From DHVE2 group archaeon (GTDB lineage Archaea; Thermoplasmatota; Thermoplasmata; Thermoplasmatales; Aciduliprofundaceae): a stretch of 64,000 nt of DNA. Below the pieces are notes generated by a model, which was given only the letters and a program-made list of their open reading frames with translations, searched no databases and was not told where the DNA came from. Positions 19,808-53,836 of the stretch are shown one piece after another (position 1 is the stretch's first letter; every line of letters begins with the position of its first letter). The stretch covers positions 48,187-112,186 of the forward strand of contig JALVVV010000027.1 of NCBI GenBank assembly GCA_027023265.1, given 5' to 3'. The position numbers were made by a program, and so were the translations under genes.

Positions 19808-19826
<19 letters not shown>
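19785..19826 (-). repeat. 23S processing stem, 3' arm
   Basis: Bases 19785-19799 are a perfect 15-bp inverted complement of 22779-22793. Bases 19810-19826 pair with 22753-22769 at 16 of 17 positions. The short unpaired stretches between the two helices on each side give the bulge-helix-bulge layout cut by the archaeal splicing endonuclease during pre-23S maturation. Confidence 0.85.
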
Positions 19827-22752
<2,926 letters not shown>

Positions 22753-22770
<18 letters not shown>

Positions 22771-30580: not shown

Positions 30581-32659
30581 ATGAGGAGCAAAATGAGGAA
30601 ATTACTCGGGGACTGGCGGCTTCTCCTGTTTTTAGTGACTTTATTAGCTATAGCTCTGCGCTCCATCCCTGCCTGGCTATATTCAGGTTGGGGTAATGAT
30701 TTTGGAATATACTATTCAATAACCATCGAATTTCTCCAGAAGAGAAACCCTCTTTACGAGTATCCCGCTTTCTGGGGTTCCTCTGGATATGGCTCCTTTC
30801 CGATGTTCTACCTCATAATAATGGGTGCGTATTACCTTACCGGTGCGGATCCGCGTATTTTGGTGCTTCGCGTTCCTCCTGTAATTGGCGGTTTAACGGT
30901 AATTCCTCTATTTCTGATATCCTATTACCTTACTAAAAGCAGAAAAACATCTTTGCTTGCAGCGCTGCTTCTTGCTATAAATCCCGTGCAGATGTATCAG
31001 ACATCGATGCCTTATTTTCTGACAATCGGGCATTTTTTTCTGTTATTTTCCCTGTACTTCTTTATACGGTGGAAAGATGATACAAAATGGCTTTATTTCT
31101 TAATTCCTTCTTCAGTTGCCCTTCTGCTTTCCCATCATCTTTCCAACTACATGTTTATAATTTCCATAACAGGTATCTGGTTTGTTCTCTCCATTTTTGG
31201 AAAATTAGAACGTAAGATGATTTACAGGTACTTTTTATTCATATTACTTTTTTCAGGGGTTACTTTTACCTACTGGGTTCTGCACGTTCCGGGCATGAAG
31301 GGATTTCTATCTTCGTTGTATCACGGTGCTCTTGGATGGTATTACACCGTTGCTCTATATTATGTGTTAATGCTAACACTTTTTTACTTATCTCTGAATA
31401 TGAGGTTAAGACTCACAGGCCGCATAATAAGAGTTGTGGAAAGATGGAAAGTTCCTTGGATATTTGCTATATCCCTTGGATTTGGCATAGTTTCTTTCGT
31501 TCTTCTATCAGTTATCGGGCTTCACGGATATTATATACCTCCGGTTGCCATACTGTACTCGCTTCCTTTCTTGCTTACCCTTGGGTTCATGGGCGTGGGT
31601 TTGTCCAGGATTTACCTGAATGAGAGACTCTTTTACGTGCTGGGTGCCTGGACAGGCGCAATTGCGTTCTCCGCATTTACTGGTTTTGTTACTTGGAGTG
31701 GGCTTCTTCCATGGCGTCATGTTGAGTACCTGATGGAGCCTCTATCAATAGCCGGTGCAATGGGGATAAGGCTTGTTATGGGTAGCGAAGTGTTCAAGAA
31801 AGTGGCAATTAAGAAGAGAATGATCGTGGAGCTTGAATCTCCAAGTTACATAGTTTCCCATGGGCACAATCCCGAGGTTAGCGGGGGTATGATACATCCT
31901 ATTCCAAAACAAAGCTCCGTTACCGTTCGGGACCCTGTGGAAATCAAGTCCACCTATCCAATTGGAAGAAGTATGCAGGTACTTTTTATTTCAGTTATAG
32001 TTTTCATAGTTGTCATGAGCGGGATAACCGCTTACCCTTTTATGAACAAGGTATCTCCTCCAGAGCAGCAAGTATCCGATGTGGTTATGAGTGCTGTGTT
32101 TTATTTACAGGAATACGGTGATAGAAATTACACAGTCGCCACTGACCACAAGGTTGGTATGTTGGTTGAGGCTTACGGATTCAATTCCAGTTTTGAATAC
32201 GATTACAAAATATGGAACTCCACAACATGGATTGATTGTCTGGATGAGCTTGAAGGCCTGAACGGTACATATCCTCCCGTGGGCTACGTTCTGATAACCC
32301 GCAATATGTTAATGAACGGTGTTTACGGATACGGAGATTTGGAAAATCCCATAGCTCCTCCTGTAATGATGAACAATACTACCTATGAAAAATTCCAGCA
32401 TGAGCCCTTTGAGTTGATATTTAAAAACAGCACCCCTGATAACAGCGATTGGGTGGAAATATACCGGGTAAACTGGACATATATCTGGAACAATCTCAAT
32501 TATAGTCGCGCACCAAAAAATTTTGAAAGTGATTATACCCCGTGGTACTCCCACAGGGATTTCTTAAATTTCTCGATTTCTTGTTCAAGGGAATTCAGAC
32601 GGTCTTTGTTCACGTCGTTTCCTGCAATTTTCATTATGAACAGTAGGGATTTCAAGTGA
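30581..32659 (+). CDS. GT-C superfamily membrane glycosyltransferase-like protein
   Basis: 692 residues from the ATG at 30581, which is preferred because TTAAATAAT (about 30549-30557) is a TATA box at near-leaderless distance. About eleven to thirteen hydrophobic helices precede a C-terminal external domain. The first loop holds WGNDFGIYY, an acidic motif placed like the catalytic Asp of GT-C enzymes such as AglB/STT3 and PMT. A later SHHLSNYMF and the alternating helices fit a dolichyl-phosphate-sugar transferase. It may glycosylate archaellins or surface proteins. The last about 40 residues overlap the convergent FlaD/E gene by 127 nt, so a frameshift near 32500 shortening the true product is possible. 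Confidence 0.7.
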   Translation: MRSKMRKLLGDWRLLLFLVTLLAIALRSIPAWLYSGWGNDFGIYYSITIEFLQKRNPLYEYPAFWGSSGYGSFPMFYLIIMGAYYLTGADPRILVLRVPPVIGGLTVIPLFLISYYLTKSRKTSLLAALLLAINPVQMYQTSMPYFLTIGHFFLLFSLYFFIRWKDDTKWLYFLIPSSVALLLSHHLSNYMFIISITGIWFVLSIFGKLERKMIYRYFLFILLFSGVTFTYWVLHVPGMKGFLSSLYHGALGWYYTVALYYVLMLTLFYLSLNMRLRLTGRIIRVVERWKVPWIFAISLGFGIVSFVLLSVIGLHGYYIPPVAILYSLPFLLTLGFMGVGLSRIYLNERLFYVLGAWTGAIAFSAFTGFVTWSGLLPWRHVEYLMEPLSIAGAMGIRLVMGSEVFKKVAIKKRMIVELESPSYIVSHGHNPEVSGGMIHPIPKQSSVTVRDPVEIKSTYPIGRSMQVLFISVIVFIVVMSGITAYPFMNKVSPPEQQVSDVVMSAVFYLQEYGDRNYTVATDHKVGMLVEAYGFNSSFEYDYKIWNSTTWIDCLDELEGLNGTYPPVGYVLITRNMLMNGVYGYGDLENPIAPPVMMNNTTYEKFQHEPFELIFKNSTPDNSDWVEIYRVNWTYIWNNLNYSRAPKNFESDYTPWYSHRDFLNFSISCSREFRRSLFTSFPAIFIMNSRDFK

Positions 32660-33534
32660 TCCTCTGCACTGAGCCTCCAATCATCCACCTTCTTGTAAAT
32701 TTTTGGCTCTGGGGTCTTAATTGTTCCAGCAGGAGTTTCTATCTCCGCCTCAATCTCTTCCTCGGGGAAGTATTTGGTAACATCCTGTACTTCACCTCTT
32801 GCGTACGCCATGATCTCTGATTTTACCTCCTTGCTAATCCATCCTATGTCCACGTAGTAATCTAAGAGCAGTGTTATCTTGTCTCTTTTAACGTGTTCGA
32901 AGAGGAATTCTATCCATCGCATCAGCAGCACGATGGTGTAGTAGTCCTTCTTTATGTGGGTCAGCAGCGGTTTTTCTCGCCCATTGTACTGTGGTTCCAT
33001 TTCTTTTACCTCCTCTCTTGGGTGTGGTCTCTCTGTTACTCTTTTAACTTCCATAGGTGGTTCCGGAGCAGGAGGTGCCGGTGGCATGTTCACACTTTCT
33101 ACCACTGGTATGCTATCTTCTTCAGGACCTCCGGGTATCACGGTGTCGGGAGTTATCTCCGTTTTATCGTTCATGTTTATGAACGGGTTAATCTTCTGGG
33201 ATACTATCTCGTACACGTCAAGTAGCCTCTTGATGTTGTCCTGCATCTCCTCGTTGGTGTTTCTGATTTCTGAAATTTCGTTTTCCAGTGAGCCTATTAG
33301 TGAGTCGTGTCTTTCCAGTCTGTTCTGTATCTCGTCCAGCTTCCTCGCAAGGTCATCAATCTTCTCCGTGAGCTCATCCATGCCGCTGTTTTTCATCACG
33401 TCTCCCAATATGTTCTGCAGGTCGTTTTCCTCTATGAGCGTCTCTGATACCTCCGTTTCGGGCACTGCCACGTCTTTTTGCATCTCTGGTTCTTCCTTTT
33501 TCTCCTTTTTCTTTTTCTTAAACAACCCTGCCAT
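32533..33534 (-). CDS. Archaellum accessory protein FlaD/E-like
   Basis: 333 residues. A lysine-rich start (KKKKKEKKEE) leads to a long coiled coil (about 45-125, LTEKIDDLARKLDEIQNRLERHDSL), then a Pro-rich linker. The FlaD/E domain follows (LLTHIKKDYYTIVLLMRWIEFLFEHV, then LLLDYYVDIGWISKEVKSEIMAYARG, about 195-260), with a helical tail. FlaC/D/E proteins form the cytosolic ring of the archaellum and link it to chemotaxis adaptors. The ATG at 33534 has GGGAGGTGA upstream. It follows the archaellin gene by 68 nt, and other archaellum motor genes are not in the window. Confidence 0.85.
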   Translation of the reverse strand: MAGLFKKKKKEKKEEPEMQKDVAVPETEVSETLIEENDLQNILGDVMKNSGMDELTEKIDDLARKLDEIQNRLERHDSLIGSLENEISEIRNTNEEMQDNIKRLLDVYEIVSQKINPFINMNDKTEITPDTVIPGGPEEDSIPVVESVNMPPAPPAPEPPMEVKRVTERPHPREEVKEMEPQYNGREKPLLTHIKKDYYTIVLLMRWIEFLFEHVKRDKITLLLDYYVDIGWISKEVKSEIMAYARGEVQDVTKYFPEEEIEAEIETPAGTIKTPEPKIYKKVDDWRLSAEDHLKSLLFIMKIAGNDVNKDRLNSLEQEIEKFKKSLWEYHGV

Positions 33535-33602
33535 TTTTTCACCTCCCTTGGTCATTCAAGGTTCCCTGTTCTCTGGTTCGCTGTTCAAAGAAATAAAGGA
33601 GA

Positions 33603-34232
33603 TCAGTAGAGATCCACGTACTTCGTAGTGAGTGTAGCAGGTACCATGAATGCTGCATAGGTAGGTACTCCATGCTTGGGTATTATCTGAAGAGTTACCT
33701 GGGACTGCGGAGTTAAGTTGAGGCCTACTGCAGTTGCGTTTATCACAAGCTTCACAACGTCTCCCTGTGTCATCACGTACTGGTTATTCCAGTTCTGTGG
33801 GGGCATGTCCCTGAGAAGCACAGCCGTGTATTCGGTTCCACTGCCGGTTATTGTTGCGTTTCCGAGAACACTTGTTGTGTCTGGAGTAAAGCTCAGAGTA
33901 ACGTCTGTTGAGCCGTCTGTTATTTCAATTAGCACACTTTTCATATCAATGGCAGGGCTTCCAGCGAGGAGTCCAACCTTTATTTCTATGGTACTCAACT
34001 TAGGCGGAGATGCGCTAAGGTCTACTTTTCCACCCATGTGTATTATTTTAAATCCAGTTGCGACATCCTGTATAGCTATGTTACCAGTCTCCTCCGCCTG
34101 CTGCTGCAGCTGGTACGCTGTCTGTATTAACACCGTTGCGGCAACGGCAGCCACGATAATCATGGCTATAAAGATTATCAGGGTGCCGATGCCCATCTCT
34201 CCTTTTTCTTTCTTATTCCACACCTTTTTCAT
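33603..34232 (-). CDS. flaB: Archaellin (archaeal flagellin)
   Basis: 209 residues. A class III signal peptide with cleavage predicted after KKEKG is followed by [20 protein letters not shown], the conserved filament-core helix. The C-terminal beta domain has the archaellin pattern [26 protein letters not shown], the VKLVINA strand and [17 protein letters not shown], ending KYVDLY. The Shine-Dalgarno GAGGTGATG precedes the ATG, and AT-rich promoter elements occur at about 34290-34322. N-x-S/T sites suggest glycosylation. It heads the archaellin-FlaD/E unit. Confidence 0.93.
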
Positions 34233-43561: not shown

Positions 43562-45310
43562 ATGGGTAAACCCGTATATCTTGGAAAGTTGAGGTTGAAA
43601 TGGTGCGATACCTGCAATGTACCCCTTATAGGAGATAAGTGTAGTAAATGTGGTTCAACAGGAAGAAAAGTTTCCATAACTCCTCCCGGAGAAGTTAGGA
43701 TAGGTTATGAGGGGGATTTGGAGGTATTGAACAACGCGCTACGTCGCGATTTTGGATGCGAGATTAACAGGAATGTGGTACTTTTTAACAGGGTTCCTCA
43801 CAGGGATAGAATGGATGAGGTAATTATTGCAGGAAGGGTAATATGTACTCTTAGATACGACGTGCAGGATAGGACGTACAGGGTCTCTTTGAGGATGCCC
43901 GGAGCTTATCTGTTGGGTAAATGCGCCAAGAAAAACGTGGTCGTTGCAGATGATGGCGCTATAAATCCTGTGCTTTCTGGAAAGAACTTGATGGTACCCG
44001 GTGTTGTGAGCGCAACAGATGGTATATCTAAGGGCGATGAGGTTATAGTTAAAGATAAATCAGGTAGGGTTTTTGCAGTGGGTATTGCAAAGATGAGCAC
44101 GGAAGAAATGCGAGAGTTTACGAGGGGGGTTGCTGTGAAGATAAGGTATGCTGAATACGGAGATTTTGATTCGGGTCAGGATTCTTATATCAGTGATGTC
44201 ATAGACGCAAATATTGAGCATCTCAAGCATATTGAGAGTGAGGCTGTTAATTTCATAAAATCCACACATGAAAAATACGCTCTACCTCTCGCAGTTTCTT
44301 TTAGCGGTGGTAAGGACTCCCTTGCAACTCTTCTTCTTGCTATGGAAAGTGGAGAGGATTTTAGAGTGTTCTTTCTTGATACGGGTATAGAATTGCAAGA
44401 AACGGTTGATTACGTTGAGTATGTTGGAAAAAAGTACGGCATTGATGTGGATATTATCTCAGCAGGTAACGCGTTCTGGGACAGCCTTGATGTTTTTGGC
44501 CCACCTGCTCGGGATTACCGGTGGTGTTGCAAGGTTACCAAGCTTGGGCCAACTACGAGGTACATACTTGAGAAGTATCCTGAGGGGCTGTTGACTTTAA
44601 TCGGACAGAGGCGATATGAGAGTGAAGATAGAATGAAAAAGGGCAGGATTTGGAAAAATGAATGGGTGCCAAATCAACTATCTGCAAGTCCAATACAGAA
44701 CTGGACATCTCTTGAAGTGTGGCTCTACATACTGTGGAAAAATGCCCCTTTTAACGTTTGGTACCGGCGAGGATTGACGCGAATAGGATGCTATCTTTGT
44801 CCATCTTCGGATATTGCAGACTTGGAGATTGTAGCAAGGTATTATGATGGTGTGGAGCGATGGTTTTCGTACCTGAAACGCTTTGCATCAGAACATGATA
44901 TTCCGGAAGAATGGGCCGAGAACGCGTGGCGGTGGAGGCATCCGCCAAAGTGGGCGGGAGGCCGGAGCGTTCACAGGGAGTTTCCCAGAGTGGAATTTGG
45001 AGAGGGGACATGGGCCGAGCTAAATGTTCGCGGAGAATACGATTTTAAAAGAGCGATAAACCTACTAAGCGCTTTGCCCCCGGGCACCTGGAAAGTTGAA
45101 AATGAACACGTTTTTGTCAGGGAGCAGTTTAAACAAGAAGCTAAGAGCTTAGTTGTTCGGGCAATAGGCTGTGTTGGATGCGGTGTATGCCTCGGGAGGT
45201 GTCCTGTCAATGCTCTGTTGTTAGATGAAGAGAACAAGGTGGTGATAAACGAGGATAAATGTGTACACTGCCTTGATTGCCTGGGACCATGTCCTGCGGA
45301 GAACTTTTAG
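43562..45310 (+). CDS. PAPS reductase-like protein with zinc ribbon, PUA and ferredoxin domains
   Basis: 582 residues. An N-terminal zinc ribbon (WCDTCNVPL, CSKCGSTG) is followed by a PUA-like RNA-binding domain (about 105-195, GVVSATDGISKGDEVIVKD) and an adenine-nucleotide alpha-hydrolase domain with the P-loop LAVSFSGGKDSLATL (about 240-255). CCKVTKLGP and GCYLCPSS follow, and a C-terminal 2x[4Fe-4S] ferredoxin (CVGCGVCLGRCP and CVHCLDCLGPCP) ends it. This is the archaeal PAPS-reductase-related fusion. The PUA domain argues for sulfur transfer to RNA or a related reaction rather than sulfate assimilation, but the substrate is not known. Confidence 0.82.
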   Translation: MGKPVYLGKLRLKWCDTCNVPLIGDKCSKCGSTGRKVSITPPGEVRIGYEGDLEVLNNALRRDFGCEINRNVVLFNRVPHRDRMDEVIIAGRVICTLRYDVQDRTYRVSLRMPGAYLLGKCAKKNVVVADDGAINPVLSGKNLMVPGVVSATDGISKGDEVIVKDKSGRVFAVGIAKMSTEEMREFTRGVAVKIRYAEYGDFDSGQDSYISDVIDANIEHLKHIESEAVNFIKSTHEKYALPLAVSFSGGKDSLATLLLAMESGEDFRVFFLDTGIELQETVDYVEYVGKKYGIDVDIISAGNAFWDSLDVFGPPARDYRWCCKVTKLGPTTRYILEKYPEGLLTLIGQRRYESEDRMKKGRIWKNEWVPNQLSASPIQNWTSLEVWLYILWKNAPFNVWYRRGLTRIGCYLCPSSDIADLEIVARYYDGVERWFSYLKRFASEHDIPEEWAENAWRWRHPPKWAGGRSVHREFPRVEFGEGTWAELNVRGEYDFKRAINLLSALPPGTWKVENEHVFVREQFKQEAKSLVVRAIGCVGCGVCLGRCPVNALLLDEENKVVINEDKCVHCLDCLGPCPAENF

Positions 45311-45657
45311 TCGATTACCCTGTTTATTTCTTCGATTATGTACTTTATGCCTGCGCTCTTGGAGATGAATTTAACTGCACCAGCTCTTTTTGCATCTTCT
45401 GCAACGTTGTAGTTATCTATGCCGCTAAGCACGACAACCCTTGCATCTTCGTCCTCCTCTCTAATCTTTTCTATAACTTCAATTCCACTTAGGTCGGGTA
45501 ATATCAGATCAAGCAGCACAAGGTCCGGTTTGAGCTGCGGGTACTTTTCTATGGCCTCCTCTCCGTTTCGTGCCCACTCTACCTTCGCATTTTTAATAGC
45601 ATTTTTAAGAAGTCGATAGAACATCTCCGAGTCATCTACAATCAGTATGTTTTTCAT
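45307..45657 (-). CDS. CheY-like response regulator receiver
   Basis: A 116-residue single receiver domain. ILIVDDSE gives the acidic pocket, LVLLDLILPD the phospho-accepting Asp (about 52), VVLSG the switch Ser and FISKSA the conserved Lys. It has no output domain, so it probably acts by protein contact, as CheY does on the archaellum. The ATG at 45657 overlaps the TGA of the GvpD-like gene (ATGA), with GGTGATAGT upstream, so the two are translated together. It converges on the PAPS-reductase gene with a 4-nt overlap. Confidence 0.9.
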   Translation of the reverse strand: MKNILIVDDSEMFYRLLKNAIKNAKVEWARNGEEAIEKYPQLKPDLVLLDLILPDLSGIEVIEKIREEDEDARVVVLSGIDNYNVAEDAKRAGAVKFISKSAGIKYIIEEINRVID

Positions 45658-47015
45658 ACTATCACCTTCGGTATCAATTTTGGATACTCTTCGTATTTTA
45701 TGTCCAAGTGATGAACCCTTGTCCATGGCTTTATTCCGTACATTACCACATCCCCGTTTATGTTTTTGAATTTCACGTATATGTCTGAGATGCTAGAACT
45801 GAACTTCTTGTTTTCCTCACCCATTATATTGCCTGCAATCAGCGTGACCCCACCTAATTCCTTTACTGTGTCTTTGAGGCGATACATCGTTTTCATAGTG
45901 TCATGTGAGCTCATGTAACTGTTAAGGCGGTCGTATCCCACTACTATCAACGGCGCAAATTCGGATACATTTTTGTGAATCTCATTGTGTATTACTTTAA
46001 CTATCTCTTTTGAATTTGAAAAATCAACGAGTCTTGCAAATTCCTCCACGTCTCCTTCTCCGTATAGATAGGTTATGTTTTTGTAATATCTTTCAAGCTT
46101 GTAAATGTATATGCTGTACTTCAAATCGCTCATGTCAAATCCATTTGGTGGTATAATTATGACTCGGGAGCCGTGATACGAGAAACTTGCAATAAAGCCC
46201 ATCAAGCTTGCTACTTTGTAGGGTACGGGAACGTGCTCCCCGAAGTCAAACACTACTGTGTGGCTTCTGCGCACGGTAAATATATCATCGAAATATGTGC
46301 TGCCCGGGATTTCTGAGCTTGGCTTGTATCCTAAAATCTTTTGGGGATGCTTGAACCTGCTTGAATGTAGGTAGTTAAACTTGTTTTCCTTCAATGTGAA
46401 AAAATACACATTTTTTTCTATTTCCACACCCCTGAGCTTGTCTATCGTAAACCATCTGTAAAGCCGACCCTCTTTTACATTCTTCCAGGCTGTTACCACT
46501 CCATCTGCCAGGTATGACAGGTTATCGTCCTCGTTTCCCTCTCTTACCACGATGAAATTGACATCCATGTCCGAGAGCCTTATGAGTTTAAGGAAAAAGG
46601 ATGAAGAATCGTAAATTTTCTCTCTCTCCTTTTCCTCCATTGCGAGTATGTTCAGTTCATTAATTATCCCGTGCCAGCTATCTATAATTATCCCATTTAT
46701 TTTACCATCTTCAACGAGGTTCAGCACTTTCCGTAGTGCCTCTGGAATCAGGTAAAACACCGAGCCAAATCTGTCAGTTTCTCTGTAATCATATTTTTCG
46801 TCTATTGCAAACATGTGTTCCTTCATCTCTTCTGTGATCCATGGGTATTCTCTCTTGATTTCCTCCACTGTTCTCTTCGTTCCCACATATGCCATGTTGT
46901 AGTTTTTCATCAATTCAAGGGACATTTTGGTTTTGCCAGTACCCGGCTCCCCTCTTATTAAAAGAACCACGCCGCTTCGGTTTAGAAACTTTGAAATCTC
47001 TTTGGGAACAGACAT
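45654..47015 (-). CDS. GvpD/KaiC-like P-loop ATPase
   Basis: 453 residues. SVPKEISKFLNRSGVVLLIR leads to Walker A GEPGTGKT (about 25), the opening of GvpD-like RecA-superfamily proteins. Walker B is INGIIIDSWHG. The C-terminal half has a second RecA-like fold without a clear P-loop (VVFDFGEHVPVPYKVASLMG, LIVVGYDRLN). Haloarchaeal GvpD represses gas-vesicle genes, but none occur here, so a signalling or regulatory role coupled to the CheY-like partner is inferred. A TATA-like ATTTAAAT (about 47040-47048) is leaderless to ATG 47015; ATG 47027 is the alternative. Confidence 0.78.
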   Translation of the reverse strand: MSVPKEISKFLNRSGVVLLIRGEPGTGKTKMSLELMKNYNMAYVGTKRTVEEIKREYPWITEEMKEHMFAIDEKYDYRETDRFGSVFYLIPEALRKVLNLVEDGKINGIIIDSWHGIINELNILAMEEKEREKIYDSSSFFLKLIRLSDMDVNFIVVREGNEDDNLSYLADGVVTAWKNVKEGRLYRWFTIDKLRGVEIEKNVYFFTLKENKFNYLHSSRFKHPQKILGYKPSSEIPGSTYFDDIFTVRRSHTVVFDFGEHVPVPYKVASLMGFIASFSYHGSRVIIIPPNGFDMSDLKYSIYIYKLERYYKNITYLYGEGDVEEFARLVDFSNSKEIVKVIHNEIHKNVSEFAPLIVVGYDRLNSYMSSHDTMKTMYRLKDTVKELGGVTLIAGNIMGEENKKFSSSISDIYVKFKNINGDVVMYGIKPWTRVHHLDIKYEEYPKLIPKVIV

Positions 47016-47063
47016 CAGAAAAACCATCGTCTTTAAAGATTTAAATTTTTCGTTATAAAAATC

Positions 47064-47672
47064 TTATCTTTTTATTGATATTTCTTTCAACTCGTTTTGG
47101 AGCATGGCTCTCTCCCTGTCATCAAGGCTATTCATGTTTATGGAGATCAAAAGTATCCCGTGTTTTTCGCTAACAGCATCTTTTGCAGTTTGTATGAACT
47201 TTAGAAATGAATTGAATCCGTTATTTACTATTAATGAATTAACGCCATCTATTACAATTGCTCCGCGTCCCTCTTTCTTCAGAAAGTCTTTTATTATTGC
47301 AAGTAACTTGTGAAGGTCTCCGGGAGAAACTGAATTTTCCTTCTTCATGGTGGTTAGCCAGTAAAATTCTGTGTTTTCCAATACGCTGCTAAATGGCATG
47401 TTGTCAGGGTTGGTCCTTGTTATGCACAGCCCCCTGTATCTTCTCTTCAGTACCTGCTGAAACACGGTATATACTATTCTTGCCTGCTCTTCCTGAACAT
47501 AATATGATTCTCCTGAGTTCAGAGTGTAACCCCCGCGGACATTTACATCGGATCCGCTTTGACAGTTTTCATATTTCTTGATAATACGTATAACGTCCCT
47601 CTTCAAGTTATTCCCCTTAACTGCTCGCTTCAAATCCCGAATAATGGCCTTATTGCACAACGAGCTATCCAT
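47064..47672 (-). CDS. DUF835 domain protein
   Basis: 202 residues. After a helical N-terminus (about 1-55), the DUF835 domain shows SYYVQEEQARIVYTVFQQVL, GLCITRTNPD, NTEFYWLTT, and then GAIVIDGVNSLIVNNGFNSFL with an Asp placed like a degenerate Walker B. DUF835 proteins are common in archaea, often fused to or beside sensor domains, and appear RecA-like without a P-loop. The TATA box (TTTTTATAC, about 47693-47701) is 25 nt before the ATG, so it is transcribed separately from the KaiC-like gene behind it. Confidence 0.78.
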   Translation of the reverse strand: MDSSLCNKAIIRDLKRAVKGNNLKRDVIRIIKKYENCQSGSDVNVRGGYTLNSGESYYVQEEQARIVYTVFQQVLKRRYRGLCITRTNPDNMPFSSVLENTEFYWLTTMKKENSVSPGDLHKLLAIIKDFLKKEGRGAIVIDGVNSLIVNNGFNSFLKFIQTAKDAVSEKHGILLISINMNSLDDRERAMLQNELKEISIKR

Positions 47673-47718
47673 AGTGAATAATCCTGTATGTAGTATAAAA
47701 AGATGCCGGTGGAGGGGT

Positions 47719-48438
47719 TTAATGAGATACTATTCTGAACCCCCTCTCGTCAACTAACAGTGGGTAATAATCGGTGCTGTGTTTCACACCTCTCATTTTT
47801 ATCACTGATATGTATCTTCCGAGGGTCCTGCCCACTCTTTCCATGGATAGATGTATTATTCCGTCTGCGAGGAATCCTTCCACATCGTAAGTTCCGAAGT
47901 TCATCGAGTTGTATGTGGATTCTGAGATGATGAACGTGGTGGAGCTCAGCTCTCTCAGTGACTCAAATAGGAAGAACAGTTGATTTCTCGGATTTTCCAT
48001 CTCTGCTATTGCGTACAACGCCTGCAGAGAGTCTAAAATCAATATGTCTATCTTCTTATCCTTCGCATATTCTCTAATAGGCGTTTCTATAGCCTTGATC
48101 CAGTCAACTTTATCATAAGTTCCCGATTCTTTAACCATCTTTCTTACCAAGCCCCAGTCAAACACGTTGAACTCCGCACCCTTTGGCAACTTTTCTGTAT
48201 CCATATTTAAGCTTACCATCTGGCGAAGCAGGCTCTCGCGGCTCTGCTCCAGAGACACGTAAATCACATTCCCCTTTTTGTTGTTCTGAAGGTATTTGTA
48301 GCCCATATAGAAGGTCAGAGTGGATTTCATGCTTCCAGTAGGTCCGGAGACCAGTACTATATGCCCAATAGGTATGCCTCTTTCTATTTTCTCGTCAAGT
48401 CCTGCAACATATGTTTTTAGATATTCTGCCATTTCCAT
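47719..48438 (-). CDS. KaiC-like ATPase with altered P-loop (GPTGSMKS)
   Basis: 239 residues, a single KaiC domain. GLDEKIERGIPIGHIVLVSG leads to Walker A GPTGSMKST, where the usual second Gly before Lys is Met (codon ATG). Later motifs include VIYVSLEQSRESLLRQM, ILILDSLQALYA (Walker B) and VIKMRGVKHSTDYYPLLVDE, typical of archaeal KaiC family members such as FlaH relatives. Whether it hydrolyses ATP is uncertain. The ATG at 48438 overlaps the preceding TGA (TGATG), so it is coupled to the 83-residue gene. Confidence 0.82.
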   Translation of the reverse strand: MEMAEYLKTYVAGLDEKIERGIPIGHIVLVSGPTGSMKSTLTFYMGYKYLQNNKKGNVIYVSLEQSRESLLRQMVSLNMDTEKLPKGAEFNVFDWGLVRKMVKESGTYDKVDWIKAIETPIREYAKDKKIDILILDSLQALYAIAEMENPRNQLFFLFESLRELSSTTFIISESTYNSMNFGTYDVEGFLADGIIHLSMERVGRTLGRYISVIKMRGVKHSTDYYPLLVDERGFRIVSH

Positions 48439-48689
48439 CACCCTACATGCTCATTTTCCAGTAGTTTTATCATATCGTTATATATCTCATCGGCAATTTT
48501 TCTTCCTGCAAACCTCTCAATTGATTCCCTTATGTCCTTCATCAAAAGGATATATTCTTCCTTACTTAAAACTTTTCCTGAAAGCCCCAATCTCTTTTTA
48601 TGCAGCTCCACAATTGTGCTGCTGAGCCCATCTATAAGCTTTTCAAGTTTTTTCTTCAACTCTATTTCAATGAGAGTATCCAAGTCCAT
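48438..48689 (-). CDS. Small helical protein coupled to KaiC-like ATPase
   Basis: 83 residues, charged and helical (LIEIELKKKLEKLIDGLSST, YNDMIKLLENEHVG), with no recognised family. The ATG at 48689 has TTTATAT (about 48714-48720) about 27 nt upstream, giving a leaderless start; the upstream in-frame extension is not coding. It is translationally coupled to the KaiC-like gene, so it may be a partner subunit or adaptor. Confidence 0.65.
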   Translation of the reverse strand: MDLDTLIEIELKKKLEKLIDGLSSTIVELHKKRLGLSGKVLSKEEYILLMKDIRESIERFAGRKIADEIYNDMIKLLENEHVG

Positions 48690-48858: not shown

Positions 48859-50475
48859 ATGAAAAAGGTGTATCACAAGGAGGAAGGAGACATAGGGATT
48901 GCTACTCTGATACTTTTCATTGCAATCATAATAGTTGCAGCTATCGCCTCATCACTAATAATATACGTTGGTGTTACTCTAAGGGAGCAGGGGGAGGAAG
49001 TGGCTAAAGAAGCTACGGAGCAGATAACAAGCTCCCTGCGCATTTTGAATATATTAGGAGATAGGGATACCGATGGAAAGCCTGCAAATATAATCTCGGT
49101 TAGAGCGCCAATTCAGCACGATAGCACGCCTCCTGTTGGTGGGGTTATTGAGAACGTGAGTTTGTATTCCACGAACCCTCTCGGGGTATTAATTAGATGG
49201 AAATCTGCTGTTGATTACGAATCAGGAATGTGCTGCGAGAAGATATACCGGGTTAGCGGTGACGATACCACCTTAAAGTACGTTTTGAGTAATATAAATT
49301 ATGTAAAGGAGATGGGGACTTTAGTTGCAAATATTACTGGTAATTTCAGTTCTGATAGAAGCTATGTTGATTATTCTGTTGATTCTGGACAAACATACGG
49401 GTATGCTATAATTGGCTATGACCACGCGGGTAATGCTCTTCTGTATGAAGAGAATGACAATATTATTACCGTCTCAACGGGCACAAAAGATACAACCCCT
49501 CCCTCAGGAAGTGTTAATAATATAAAATCTGCAGGTGTGGGTGTATTAATAACATGGACTGCTTCAGATTCAGGCTCGGGAATAGCAAAGCAGATAGTCT
49601 ATCGCTCAAGGTCCGAAATAAGCGCTTCCAATATAAACAATGCAACGGTGGTTGCTGTTCTTAACGGGACTGCAAGAAGCTATATGGACTATCCGCCAAG
49701 CAACGGCACCTGGTATTATGCTGTCGAGGGAATTGATAGAGCTGGCAACACTGCTATTTATACGAGCAATGTAGATTCTATAGATGTATCCATGGTGGAT
49801 ACTGGAAAACCAAGAGACATCGGTGGTATGCATGCTTATACTGGAGATTACTGGATAGACATATCTTGGGCGCCATCGCGGGATAATGAATCAGGTATTG
49901 CTGGGTATTATGTATATCGGAGCTTAAATTATGAGGCTCTGACCTCAAACGCAATACTGAGCTCCAGGCCTTATGCATTTGTGAATACCACTCATTTTAA
50001 GGATTATGTTTATCAACCGTATCAGGTTTATTATTATCTGGTAATTCCTGTGGACAGGGCTGGCAATGTTGGAGATATAATATATCCTCAATCAACCATA
50101 CAAATTCTTGAGCTAAAGGTTGCTTTGGGCCCTGGCTCTCAACCCGTGGATTTTAATGATGTTATCGTTGAGCTTACCGATGGACACGTGGAAGCATCTT
50201 TGCAGTTGAACTCAAGCGGATTTGGGGTTAATTACAGTGATGGGAAGCATTTTTCCGTGGGAGTGGTACGGGACCCTTCAGGGGAGTTTAGAAGCAATTA
50301 CATACTAGGAGATGGCGGAGTTGTCATTATTTACATAAATGCCCGTAAGGTTGGTCTTTCTCTGGAACCCCAGACGGTTTTAACTATGAAAATATTGCCG
50401 GGAAATGGCATTCCAATTTACGTGAAGGTGATAATACCGTCAATAATGTTAAATAGGTTTGTTCAGATATACTGA
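48859..50475 (+). CDS. Oversized archaellin with three fibronectin-III-like domains inserted
   Basis: 538 residues. The N-terminus is a class III signal peptide cut after HKEEG, then DIGIATLILFIAIIIVAAIA, matching the archaellin core helix at 33603-34232. The C-terminal about 120 residues match the archaellin beta domain in order: LELKVALGPGSQP, IVELTDG, VVIIYINARKVGLSLEPQTV, KILPGNGIPIYVKVIIPS, ending RFVQIY. Between them (about 87-414) sit three FN3-like repeats. Each opens with D-(S/T)-(T/G)-(P/K)-P, has a W then SGI and an IYR/VYRS strand, and ends D-(H/R)-A-G-N. This looks like a filament or tip subunit carrying adhesive domains. CTTTAAATAAGG (48828-48839) is leaderless to ATG 48859. It is followed by a coupled small gene. 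Confidence 0.88.
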   Translation: MKKVYHKEEGDIGIATLILFIAIIIVAAIASSLIIYVGVTLREQGEEVAKEATEQITSSLRILNILGDRDTDGKPANIISVRAPIQHDSTPPVGGVIENVSLYSTNPLGVLIRWKSAVDYESGMCCEKIYRVSGDDTTLKYVLSNINYVKEMGTLVANITGNFSSDRSYVDYSVDSGQTYGYAIIGYDHAGNALLYEENDNIITVSTGTKDTTPPSGSVNNIKSAGVGVLITWTASDSGSGIAKQIVYRSRSEISASNINNATVVAVLNGTARSYMDYPPSNGTWYYAVEGIDRAGNTAIYTSNVDSIDVSMVDTGKPRDIGGMHAYTGDYWIDISWAPSRDNESGIAGYYVYRSLNYEALTSNAILSSRPYAFVNTTHFKDYVYQPYQVYYYLVIPVDRAGNVGDIIYPQSTIQILELKVALGPGSQPVDFNDVIVELTDGHVEASLQLNSSGFGVNYSDGKHFSVGVVRDPSGEFRSNYILGDGGVVIIYINARKVGLSLEPQTVLTMKILPGNGIPIYVKVIIPSIMLNRFVQIY

Positions 50476-50484
50476 GGTGTGATT

Positions 50485-50841
50485 ATGTTCACTAAGAAGA
50501 ACAAGGTCGATGAGAAAAAGGAGCTGTTAAAGGAAGCTTACAAGTTAGGCTTTGAGGTTGGGTACTACCGCCATTACGAATCTGTAGGCTGGGTTCGTAG
50601 AAAGCGAGAGGAAATAGAGAGCATTGCGGAGCAGGAAGGTATATTGGATAAAGTTAGGGAAGCGTATGACAGAGGCAAGGTTGATGGGGAGCGAAAAAAA
50701 AGCGTTGATCTGATAGAAGAGAGGAAGATAGCGGATAAGCACAAAAACATGCCTGTGAGGGAGCTGGCGGCTATCGAGATTCCAGATTTGCAGCCTAAAT
50801 TTTTCAGCGTTCCCCGTTTTCTCAGAAAAAATCACAAGTGA
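50485..50841 (+). CDS. Charged hypothetical protein co-transcribed with the FN3-archaellin
   Basis: 118 residues, soluble, helical and lysine/glutamate-rich (KELLKEAYKLGFEVGYYRHY, REAYDRGKVDGERKKSVDL), with a short basic end (RKNHK). It has no signal or membrane segment. It is separated from the FN3-archaellin stop by 9 nt, with GAGGTGATT directly before the ATG. No family was recognised. Its position suggests a cytosolic helper (chaperone, assembly or control) for the unusual archaellin. Confidence 0.65.
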   Translation: MFTKKNKVDEKKELLKEAYKLGFEVGYYRHYESVGWVRRKREEIESIAEQEGILDKVREAYDRGKVDGERKKSVDLIEERKIADKHKNMPVRELAAIEIPDLQPKFFSVPRFLRKNHK

Positions 50842-50900: not shown

Positions 50901-50987
50901 ATGAACTCGAAAAAAGATACCTGGATAATAATATACGATGAAAAAATTAAAAAAATGTTTGAGAACTCACATGAATCCTCTAAGTAA
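50901..50987 (+). CDS. 28-residue microprotein with its own promoter
   Basis: An ATG at 50901 opens a 28-codon frame (starts MNSKKDTWIIIYDEKIKK) ending in TAA at 50987. GTTTAAATAGG (about 50870-50880) is a good TATA box centred about 26 nt upstream, the spacing seen at other leaderless genes here. The end overlaps the convergent zinc-ribbon gene by 21 nt. No family is recognised and expression is unproven. Confidence 0.4.
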   Translation: MNSKKDTWIIIYDEKIKKMFENSHESSK

Positions 50988-51623
50988 TCTCAATGTATTT
51001 TTTGAGGGTAGAAATAGAAGCTCTCCCTTTGGTTTTTCATCGGAAATTAGCTGGTAGTTAAGCATGAGTATGTTCTTGTCTCTATCAACCTCTGAGGAGA
51101 GGTAATTCATGAGTGCATTCATAGTGTCGTATGCTATGTCTATGTTCTTTATTTTTGCATCCCAAGAAAGCTTTTTGATGAAAGCCTCAAAGGAATCTCT
51201 TGCCATGGATTTCAGAGAAGATACTACTCCCCCTTTGTACTTGTTTATTATTCCTGATACTTCGCTTTCCGGAATTATCAAAAGCAACGTGCCCGACACA
51301 CTGTCTTCAAAATCAATGAATATTCCATAAAGATATTCACCCTCTCCGTATCTGGTGGCAATGTCTTCTAAGGACACGTCCTTTCTGAACATGTGTTTGA
51401 TATCTTCGCTGTACGTTTCCTTTGTCATCTCTTCTCCCGCTTCTTTTACTTTTTCGCCTATTACTTCTTTCTCTTCCTCTGAGAGTTCGTCTGCACTAAC
51501 AAAATCTCTGAGGTCTATGATGGCATCTCTTTCAGGATAAAAAATAAATCCGCAATCGAGGCACTGGTAGCTTCCAGTTTTTAACTTTTTCACATTTCTT
51601 GAACCACATACAGGGCATCTCAT
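50967..51623 (-). CDS. Zinc-ribbon protein with CheC/CheX-like domain
   Basis: 218 residues. An N-terminal zinc ribbon (CPVCGSRNV, CLDCGFIFY) is joined by an acidic helical linker to a C-terminal alpha/beta domain. The strands SVSGTLLLIIPESEVSGII and KGELLFLPSKNTLRLLRGF have the paired 'G-x-L-L-(L/F)-(I/L)-P' pattern seen in CheC/CheX CheY-phosphatases, although the catalytic E..N residues are not clear. It lies 3 nt after a KaiC-like gene. A role in CheY-linked signalling is inferred from the neighbours only. Confidence 0.6.
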   Translation of the reverse strand: MRCPVCGSRNVKKLKTGSYQCLDCGFIFYPERDAIIDLRDFVSADELSEEEKEVIGEKVKEAGEEMTKETYSEDIKHMFRKDVSLEDIATRYGEGEYLYGIFIDFEDSVSGTLLLIIPESEVSGIINKYKGGVVSSLKSMARDSFEAFIKKLSWDAKIKNIDIAYDTMNALMNYLSSEVDRDKNILMLNYQLISDEKPKGELLFLPSKNTLRLLRGFM

Positions 51624-51626
51624 ACC

Positions 51627-52334
51627 TCACACCTTCGTGTTAAACACTTTAATTCCATCGGTGGTTATCTCCATCTTGTGCATGTCGCAGTCGTGTTTTG
51701 TTCCCCTCATTTTAATTACCTGTAGTGCCCTTGTCATGGTGTTACCATTTAAGAAGTTATGCAGGAATATTACCCCATGTGCCATGTAATGTTCAGGACT
51801 GTAATTGGACAGGTCAGTCATTTCTGAAAGAATCAGGGTTGTGGCTTTGAGGTCCTTTAGACTTCTGAAGAATCTTGCAATCTCCCTGTTCTGGTCCTCT
51901 TTCGTTCTGCTCCCGTACTTGAGGGTCAAAACGGAATCAATTACTATCCGTTTCACTCCTTTTAGTTTTACTAAAGCGCTTATTTTCTTGAATACCTCAT
52001 CAACGTACGGACTTTTGACATTTTCTTTGTTCTTTATGGCGTTCATGTACTGTATGCTCAGAGGACCCATATCCACAAACAAAACGAGACCTGCCAGGGT
52101 GTACCTTCTTATGTTAAATGAATATGAAGACATGTCCTCTATGATATTCCTCGGATCTTCAGTCAGAGACACGTATAATCCCCTTTCCCCCTCCTTTGCA
52201 CCCTGAATCAAAAACTGCACGCCAAAAGTGGTCTTGCCAGCTCCGGGAGGTCCCGCTACTATGTAAACCCTGTTGGGAATGAATCCCCCTTGAACGATGT
52301 TGTCAAATCCAAGTATTCCTGTCCTAATTCGCAT
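51627..52334 (-). CDS. KaiC-like ATPase
   Basis: 235 residues, a single KaiC domain with canonical Walker A GPPGAGKTT (about 29-37), LYVSLTEDPRNIIEDM, Walker B RIVIDSV, and C-terminal QVIKMRGTKHDCDMHKMEI. It opens with RIRTGILGFDNIVQGGFIPN, the usual KaiC start. The ATG at 52334 has CTTAAATAAT (about 52356-52365) about 26 nt upstream, leaderless. It is transcribed with the zinc-ribbon/CheC-like gene. KaiC family proteins act as ATP-dependent switches in archaeal signalling and archaellum control. Confidence 0.85.
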   Translation of the reverse strand: MRIRTGILGFDNIVQGGFIPNRVYIVAGPPGAGKTTFGVQFLIQGAKEGERGLYVSLTEDPRNIIEDMSSYSFNIRRYTLAGLVLFVDMGPLSIQYMNAIKNKENVKSPYVDEVFKKISALVKLKGVKRIVIDSVLTLKYGSRTKEDQNREIARFFRSLKDLKATTLILSEMTDLSNYSPEHYMAHGVIFLHNFLNGNTMTRALQVIKMRGTKHDCDMHKMEITTDGIKVFNTKV

Positions 52335-52413
52335 ATAATCTAACACTGCAAAGTGATTATTTAAGTTTTGTGTAGTGATTATTAAAAATGAAAATAGAAG
52401 AAAAACGTAGATA

Positions 52414-52899
52414 TTATTGATTATTAAGCTCGCCCAGGCGCTTCCTGATTTCTTCAAGTCTCTCTTTTATTCTTGCCGCTTCTTCTTCCAGCATCCTGAT
52501 TTCTTCCTCTGGACTTATTTCCACAGGCATGTACTGCTGAGCCATTGGTGCTGGTGCAACCTGAGTGTATCCTATCTTTAGATTTCCGTTTTTGATAGCC
52601 TCTACAGCGTCAATTATTCTCCCCTGAAATCCGTTGACTACCTGGATCCCTGCCTGTGCCAAAATCATTGATGCGTTAGGTCCAGCAACTCCTGCAGTTA
52701 CCAGCGTATTGACTCCCTGTTCTATAAGGAACTGCGCCGCCTGCACTCCTGCACCTCTGGGCATCATACCTCCTGGATTAGCAACAAAATCAAGACTCCC
52801 TGTATTCGTGTCATATATGGCATAGTATGGGCATCTTCCGAATACCATTGAAACCGGTGCTGTTTCACTCGCCACATCTGCCGTGATTGCAACTCTCAT
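52414..52899 (-). CDS. NifX/NafY-type (dinitrogenase cofactor domain) protein with coiled-coil tail
   Basis: 161 residues. The NifX-like domain (about 1-110) shows RVAITADVASETAPVSMVFG, YYAIYDTNTG, and GAGVQAAQFLIEQGVNTLVTAG, the metal-cofactor-binding fold. A flexible Pro/Ala/Gln linker leads to a coiled coil (EEEAARIKERLEEIRKRLGEL). No nitrogenase genes are present, so a general iron-sulfur or metal carrier role is inferred. The ATG at 52899 has AGGTGAAAA upstream, overlapping the end of the DUF5320 gene. It is the last gene of a four-gene operon. Confidence 0.85.
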   Translation of the reverse strand: MRVAITADVASETAPVSMVFGRCPYYAIYDTNTGSLDFVANPGGMMPRGAGVQAAQFLIEQGVNTLVTAGVAGPNASMILAQAGIQVVNGFQGRIIDAVEAIKNGNLKIGYTQVAPAPMAQQYMPVEISPEEEIRMLEEEAARIKERLEEIRKRLGELNNQ

Positions 52900-52904
52900 G
52901 TTTT

Positions 52905-53279
52905 TCACCTTTTGAGTTCTTTGAGCCTTGCTTCTATTTCTTTCAGTCTCTCTTCCAAGAATTTTGCTTCGTCCTCCAAGGCAGTTTTTTCATCAACTTG
53001 GAGCTGCTGCGGGTTTTGCCCGTAAGGGTAATACTGCCCGTAGGGTGTGTACGCTCTAGGAACTACCTGTGGGTAATTTCCGTATGGTCCATAACTTCCG
53101 TAAGGAGCTCCGTACGGGTACGTCCATCTCCACCCACGGGGCATGCCTGTCCAGGGGCAGTATCCGAGTGTGGCACCGTATCCAAATCCTCTACCAAATC
53201 CCCTGCCCCTGCCGCGTCCCCGGCGGCCGAATCCAAATCCTCTTCCGTATCCATATCCGTAGCCATAATATCCATACAT
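52905..53279 (-). CDS. Gly/Tyr-rich DUF5320-type protein with coiled-coil tail
   Basis: 124 residues. It opens with a repetitive Gly/Tyr/Arg stretch (MYGYYGYGYGYGRGF, then GRGRGRGFGRGFG) and LGYCPWTGMPRGW, typical of DUF5320. A Tyr/Pro-rich part and a C-terminal coiled coil (EDEAKFLEERLKEIEARLKEL) follow. The coiled coil is built like the one ending the NifX-like protein encoded next, suggesting they pair. GGAGGTGAT precedes the ATG at 53279. DUF5320 proteins commonly sit with NifX-like genes; function unknown. Confidence 0.78.
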   Translation of the reverse strand: MYGYYGYGYGYGRGFGFGRRGRGRGRGFGRGFGYGATLGYCPWTGMPRGWRWTYPYGAPYGSYGPYGNYPQVVPRAYTPYGQYYPYGQNPQQLQVDEKTALEDEAKFLEERLKEIEARLKELKR

Positions 53280-53302
53280 CTTATCACCTCCTTTTTGTAT
53301 TT

Positions 53303-53524
53303 TTACCATCTTCTACCTCTACCATAATACCTTCCGTATCTGTAGTTTCCCGCGATATACCTGCCAACGAGAAGTATTATTAGAAGTATGACGTAGGGCA
53401 GAGCCACGAAGAGCAGAGCTATTAATACCGCAATTATACCAACATCTATTAATATTCTCACCACATCAAGCGGTGCGGTTCTTGCGGGAAACCCCAATGC
53501 AAATGAATTTCTGCATCTGGGCAT
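53303..53524 (-). CDS. Small membrane protein of the DUF5320/NifX operon
   Basis: 73 residues with one long or two short hydrophobic helices (about 20-58, VGIIAVLIALLFVALPYVIL) and a Tyr/Arg/Gly-rich end (RYGRYYGRGRRW) similar in composition to its DUF5320 neighbours. Its ATG follows the stop of the first DUF5320 gene with no gap. It may anchor the operon products at the membrane. No family was recognised. Confidence 0.65.
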   Translation of the reverse strand: MPRCRNSFALGFPARTAPLDVVRILIDVGIIAVLIALLFVALPYVILLIILLVGRYIAGNYRYGRYYGRGRRW

Positions 53525-53791
53525 TTACCATCTTCCTCCTCTTCTTCCCTGTCCCCGTCCTCTTCCTCGGCAGGAGCCCTGTCCGTAACCTTGCCATTTT
53601 CTTCCGTTACCACCTCTGCCACGTCTCCTACCAAATCCATAGCCCTGCGCATAACCGTACGCTGGTGGGACTTCATTATACACATTGTATCCATATCCAT
53701 TATCCCTGCCTCTAAAAAGGTCGCCTACTCTTCCCAGTAATCTTCTTCTCGGACCTCTTCCATCAGGCCCTGTGCAATCTCCATACGGCAT
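53525..53791 (-). CDS. DUF5320 protein, first gene of metal-handling operon
   Basis: 88 residues beginning MPYGDCTGPDGRGPRRR, the DUF5320 N-terminal signature (M-P-x-G-D-x-T-G-P-x-G-x-G-P), followed by a Gly/Arg/Tyr-rich tail (GRGRGQGRRGGRW). The ATG at 53791 is preferred for that motif and for GGTGAT upstream; ATG 53803 would be leaderless relative to the TATA palindrome and is an alternative. Its promoter carries the operator shared with the cation transporter gene. Confidence 0.75.
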   Translation of the reverse strand: MPYGDCTGPDGRGPRRRLLGRVGDLFRGRDNGYGYNVYNEVPPAYGYAQGYGFGRRRGRGGNGRKWQGYGQGSCRGRGRGQGRRGGRW

Positions 53792-53806
53792 GTTTATCAC
53801 CATATT

Positions 53807-53836
53807 ACTCAAATGCGAATTAATATTTAAATATTT
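53807..53836 (-). promoter_or_regulatory. Shared promoter/operator module, copy 1
   Basis: ACTCAAATGCGAAT (53807-53820) followed by the palindromic AT block AATATTTAAATATT (53822-53835), which acts as the TATA box for the leftward operon. It matches 55001-55030 at 27 of 30 positions, with the same 21.5-nt distance from motif start to palindrome centre. The motif lies between the TATA box and the start codon, where a bound repressor would block initiation. Confidence 0.75.

Follow-up and report, generated by a model that had tools for sequence, protein, structure and literature searches.

Can an archaellin carry a large array of domains in the middle of its chain and still build a filament? 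The question is raised by one gene (48859-50475) in a stretch of 64,000 nucleotides from a DHVE2 group archaeon (contig JALVVV010000027.1), hereafter called the window. A reading of the sequence alone had described its product as an archaellin split by three fibronectin type III (FN3)-like domains. Our analysis supports this description. Core and insert are under purifying selection, and the corresponding genes of other families lie inside the archaellum cluster. Its sequence and predicted fold, together with the position of the gene in relatives, identify the product as an archaellin. We refer to it as FN3-archaellin.

Both ends of the protein resemble the ordinary archaellin of the window (33603-34232), as the sequence-only reading had noted. 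BLASTP aligns residues 1-82 (37% identity, E = 1e-10) and residues 417-538 (31% identity, E = 5e-22). The Pfam model Arch_flagellin (PF01917) matches two stretches, with a total of 68.2 bits for a cut-off of 29.5, and is matched by all 39 FN3-archaellins scanned. In the predicted model, an N-terminal helix and a C-terminal beta head show archaellin topology, and both ends align with archaellin structures; the C-terminal part is thus modelled as the archaellin beta-domain that had been proposed. The start of the frame coincides with that of the orthologues in the alignment. We take the leader to be of class III type, from its motif, and the sequence contains a putative class III peptidase site (KEEG/DIGIATL). 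The aligned place of the hinge is occupied by S58-S59 and, in most members of a second lineage described below, by two glycines. These residues are small, as in archaellins and unlike the QQT, QVT or QGT of pilins, but they are not S-G.

The insert, first read as about 330 residues, counts about 325 (residues 87-411) and is composed of three repeats of 123, 104 and 98 residues. Every pair of repeats outscores all of 2000 shuffles: 137 against a shuffle maximum of 67 for repeats 1 and 2, 67 against 56 for repeats 1 and 3, and 80 against 62 for repeats 2 and 3. All three are modelled as FN3-like beta-sandwiches, in agreement with their proposed folding as Ig/FN3 modules. The FN3-like pattern described earlier holds, except in some details: repeat 1 has SGM and ends with DHAGN, and repeat 3 opens with KP, not PP. 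When the insert alone was compared with PDB sequences, only weak matches were obtained (best E = 0.0074, with MreC), so that the FN3 assignment is based on the modelled fold, the repeat pattern and what the family shows. FN3-archaellin had no match in PHROGs or in phage genomes. Eight of its ten N-glycosylation sequons are in the repeats and two in the head.

According to the PDB alignment and the predicted model, the insert interrupts the head after its first strand. D68, at the end of this strand, faces N70 of M. villosus ArlB2 in an ungapped PDB alignment, and N70 is glycosylated in the assembled filament (PMC8821640). Glycan sites of Oxyplasma meridianum ArlB include N62, N72, N91 and N113 (PMC12448462). 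Sequons of the O. meridianum chain are found at 61, 71, 90 and 112, one below these sites; if this one-residue offset is right, N62 and N72 belong to the same first-strand loop. The loop is thus exposed in solved filaments, and domains inserted at this point would be expected to project away from the filament. A head loop tolerating more than 300 extra residues is also a possible place for protein display on archaella.

How widespread is this architecture? Among 389 genomes from across the phylum, full-length matches were found in seven, which are all those sampled from the window's own family; in the same set, a match in genome G042 is cut by a contig end and one in G055 is split. In a class-wide draw of 400 genomes, PF01917 was found in 73, and the search of Thermoplasmata proposed by the sequence-only reading identified FN3-archaellin (E ≤ 1e-30) in 21 of these. 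The carriers belong to families f1 (13/14), f10 (7/7) and f61 (1/1); none was found in f2 (0/25) or in the remaining 26 genomes. Family f1 contains the window, and its named relatives are DHVE2/Aciduliprofundum. Its non-carrier, G579, is 87% complete; in G639, a fifteenth genome of f1 with 72% completeness, PF01917 gave no match. The match in G430 spans positions 63-572 only. In each of the 21 carriers, the best match lies in a stop-free frame.

A tree of 57 cores (34 ordinary archaellins, 4 of a second paralogue and 19 FN3), calculated from 176 columns without the insert edges, gathers own-family and other-family FN3-archaellins in one group (Shimodaira-Hasegawa-like approximate likelihood ratio test 97.8, ultrafast bootstrap 100); the ordinary archaellins that these genomes encode fall outside this group. 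The sequences were chosen by a motif filter, which missed at least one archaellin, that of L076. A first tree, in which insert-edge columns were kept, joined all 19 FN3 archaellins (85 in the Newick file; the figure of 100 printed with this tree belongs to a midpoint-rooted node, not to the all-19 split). We discarded a single origin of all FN3 archaellins, as the G055 protein falls outside the group once these columns are removed. This 649-residue archaellin (L070:6465-8414) contains what reads as a similar triple FN3-like array and would perhaps represent a second acquisition. We therefore claim one ancestry only for the two main lineages. Three other candidates for split archaellins (G017:C6, G013:C110 and G069:C32) were rejected, being ordinary archaellins in frames extended upstream; for the large frame G022:C94, the motif used did not resolve whether it is a split archaellin.

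The second paralogue (L009:7956-8894, contig C1 of the window's own genome; orthologues in L071-L075) has an insertion of its own, of about 90 residues, at the equivalent site behind the first strand. Its representatives in L071 (E = 1.1e-4) and L074 (E = 1.8e-7) match phrog_6128, a family of phage proteins whose function is unknown. One may speculate, with more doubt than confidence, that archaellin heads of Thermoplasmata offer, in their first hairpin, a natural display socket for unrelated modules: the three-FN3 arm, the phrog-matching module of about 90 residues and the perhaps independent FN3-like array of G055, a distant genome. The archaellum would then be a mixed, functionalised filament, sheathed or anchored by a conserved arm-bearing subunit.

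Besides the query, a protein search retrieved 27 full-length relatives from the own family (59-65% identity, 535-546 residues). It also yielded a relative with 89% coverage, a fragment, two more distant proteins of full length and two weak partial matches. Searches with the helix only gave long archaellins that align as FN3-archaellins; they depend on shared five-residue words and exclude nothing. One of them, started from a distant relative, gave 36 proteins of the other lineage, 31 of which have 567-578 residues (P0048, 326 residues, was omitted from the alignment). Mean pairwise identity over 28 sequences is 90% for residues 1-70, 60-63% for the repeats and 78% for the head. In three close pairs (dS 0.30-0.56), the ratio of nonsynonymous to synonymous substitution rates (dN/dS) is 0.050, 0.053 and 0.031 for the repeats and 0.00-0.04 for residues 1-70 and the head. 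Purifying selection thus acts on core and insert alike, and the insert evolves slowly and hardly varies in size. A. boonei T469 and Aciduliprofundum sp. MAR08-339 encode close relatives (539-546 residues), annotated as a hypothetical protein in the former and as an archaeal flagellin in the latter. Both organisms are cultured, so the composition of their filaments is directly testable.

The genomic context links the gene to archaella. In all eight f10 and f61 carriers, it lies between two archaellin genes, all on one strand. In one of these clusters (L060), the following genes match ArlH and ArlI above cut-off, and ArlF and ArlG just below it (102.5 and 97.1 bits, respectively, for a cut-off of 110). 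In the own family, orf120 follows FN3-archaellin in 12 of 12 loci (L046-L057), and genes for a zinc-ribbon protein and the KaiC-family ATPase KaiC2 are present in 10 of them; in the remaining two, the contig stops before these genes would be reached. KaiC1 is found upstream in 6 of the 12 named own-family loci. In L058, orf120 is near the gene, and relatives of KaiC2 and orf120 follow FN3-archaellin within the archaellum cluster, so the association is old.

Codon usage was analysed in one complete genome (G068). PF00181 found no ribosomal genes in G068, and its ribosomal cluster was located by composition. With an index trained on ribosomal proteins, FN3-archaellin ranks at percentile 0.93 of 1164 genes, close to an ordinary archaellin (0.915) and the second paralogue (0.876), whereas the archaellin of the operon ranks at 0.395. 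A log-ratio index gives these four genes values of 0.79, 0.83, 0.59 and 0.68, in this order. This speaks weakly against a protein of few copies.

On balance, we favor the view that FN3-archaellin co-assembles with ordinary archaellins into the archaellum, with its FN3 arm pointing outward. After cleavage of the leader, the archaellum machinery would add the subunit to the filament, the N-terminal helix would sit in the core and the three modules would form a lateral arm. As the arm keeps its size and evolves slowly, it most likely meets a conserved partner and is not a variable antigen. This partner could be the surface layer of the same cell, an adjacent filament, a sister cell or further arms that together form a sheath; an adhesive role is possible. 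Several observations weigh against this view. The hinge is SS and not the S-G of archaellins. The NCBIfam flagellin subfamily NF006325 (PRK08541) reaches 77.9 bits, far under its cut-off of 210. The check with the FN3 model PF00041 gave a mixed outcome: no match at E ≤ 1 in the protein itself, and matches at E ≤ 0.1 in only 7 of 39 relatives (best 5.7e-4). In the own family, the gene is apart from the arl operon. Finally, 52 of the 73 archaellin-bearing genomes, including all 25 of f2, have no FN3-archaellin, which is therefore not needed for archaella as such.

A less probable but serious alternative is a minor archaellin limited to one end of the filament, either its base (as hook or collar) or its tip, where FN3 arms would touch the surface layer or a surface to be bound. 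In some methanogens, a hook-like base is built from minor archaellins, and ArlB3 was proposed to act as cap or base (PMC8821640, PMC7349177). All eight f10/f61 clusters have a single dedicated copy next to ordinary archaellins; this, and an arm that is conserved and constant, would fit such a role. On the other side, the codon index is as high as that of the ordinary archaellin, a weak argument from one genome, and the sequence has no base or tip mark. We regard as unlikely a separate, non-swimming adhesive filament in Aciduliprofundum, suggested by the stand-alone own-family locus with its conserved orf120, zinc-ribbon and KaiC2 genes and by the type IV pilus ATPases also present in A. boonei (PMC4858521). 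Indeed, the core is of archaellin type, the hinge residues are not those of pilins, the gene lies between archaellin genes in every other-family cluster, and KaiC2 and orf120 relatives accompany it in L058. Very improbable, in our opinion, is a secreted, membrane-anchored or decaying relic that does not assemble. The large insert and the annotation of the A. boonei copy could evoke it, but the identities and dN/dS values of residues 1-70 and the head, as well as the stop-free frames of all 21 carriers, contradict it.

Table 1. Features of the FN3-archaellin gene and related genes in the window.
Feature	Position	Strand	Basis or remark
FN3-archaellin gene	48859..50475	+	Open frame, 538 codons and stop
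Leader, residues 1-10 (MKKVYHKEEG)	48859..48888	+	Sequence; conserved in orthologue alignment
N-terminal helix, residues 9-57	48883..49029	+	PF01917, predicted model, conservation; would pack in filament core
Hinge S58-S59 and first head strand (residues 60-68)	49030..49062	+	PDB alignment, predicted model
FN3-like repeat 1, residues 87-209	49117..49485	+	Predicted model, repeat scores
FN3-like repeat 2, residues 210-313	49486..49797	+	
FN3-like repeat 3, residues 314-411	49798..50091	+	Predicted model, repeat scores
Archaellin beta head, residues 412-538	50092..50472	+	PF01917, BLASTP, predicted model
orf120	50479..50841	+	Conserved downstream neighbour, without family match
Zinc-ribbon protein	50967..51623	-	Conserved neighbour; no family above cut-off
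KaiC-family ATPase (KaiC2)	51627..52457	-	Conserved neighbour; KaiC models
Ordinary archaellin of the window	33603..34232	-	Comparison sequence
ArlC/ArlD/E-type protein beside ordinary archaellin	32533..33555	-	PF04659 and PF05377

Other features were observed in the window and in other loci. Divergent from FN3-archaellin, a cluster of receiver-like, GvpD/KaiC-like, DUF835 and KaiC1 genes occupies 45307-48441 (minus strand). Directly upstream of the ordinary archaellin, 34365-37214 (minus strand) encodes a 949-residue secreted-looking protein with matches to Ig-like families; a 966-residue protein has the equivalent position in G068. The ArlF-like proteins L060:14076-15269 and L008:2008-3093 have 397 and 361 residues, for an ArlF model of 137, and their long C-terminal part is rich in YVLD-type repeats and looks beta-propeller-like by eye. 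Two small Gly/Tyr/Arg-rich frames (52905-53812, minus strand) lie beside a putative NifX-like gene. A 23S rRNA gene is located at 19815-22763 (minus strand), and a search of 19500-64000 gave no further rRNA at or above the gathering score.

Archaellins with inserted surface parts are already known in Sulfolobales, in Oxyplasma and as the long FlaB2 of Halorubrum. In Sulfolobales ArlB (S. acidocaldarius 8qx4, S. islandicus 8cwm), a major subunit, one mixed alpha/beta glycosylation sub-domain of about 108 residues is inserted after the fifth head strand (PMC11607397). In contrast, FN3-archaellin, an extra paralogue, has three FN3-like domains after the first. O. meridianum ArlB (8rh5), from the same archaeal class, has an extra surface barb that widens the filament (PMC12448462); this barb (V126-L153) is short and at another site, and the operon contains one archaellin candidate. 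Halorubrum FlaB2 (up to 456 residues) is far longer than usual archaellins, with a conserved N-terminus (PMC7349177). PDB entries 9v95 and 9v96 ('Flagellin', 454 and 463 residues) matched FN3-archaellin by sequence at their N-termini only; they were not among the fold-search rows shown, and no paper describing them was found in open-access PMC. M. villosus ArlB1/ArlB2 and the methanogen hook archaellin FlaB3 illustrate how several paralogues of one filament can differ in position or role (PMC8821640, PMC7349177), but they are of ordinary size, without inserted domains. The comparison with bacterial flagellins made by the sequence-only reading is valid for the way they work, with a core from both chain ends and surface domains (D2/D3) from the middle (PMC7018530). 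There is no homology, and the comparison is weakened for variability: D2/D3 are hypervariable, whereas the insert is conserved and nearly constant in size within each lineage. No description of an FN3-bearing archaellin was found in open-access PMC titles or abstract beginnings; within this scope, a dedicated paralogue that is conserved across families and bears three FN3-like domains behind the first strand is apparently undescribed. The role of minor archaellins and the reason for archaellum surface sub-domains have been stated as open (PMC8821640, PMC11607397). FN3-archaellin, with a large conserved arm held constant and retained beside ordinary archaellins, bears on both questions.
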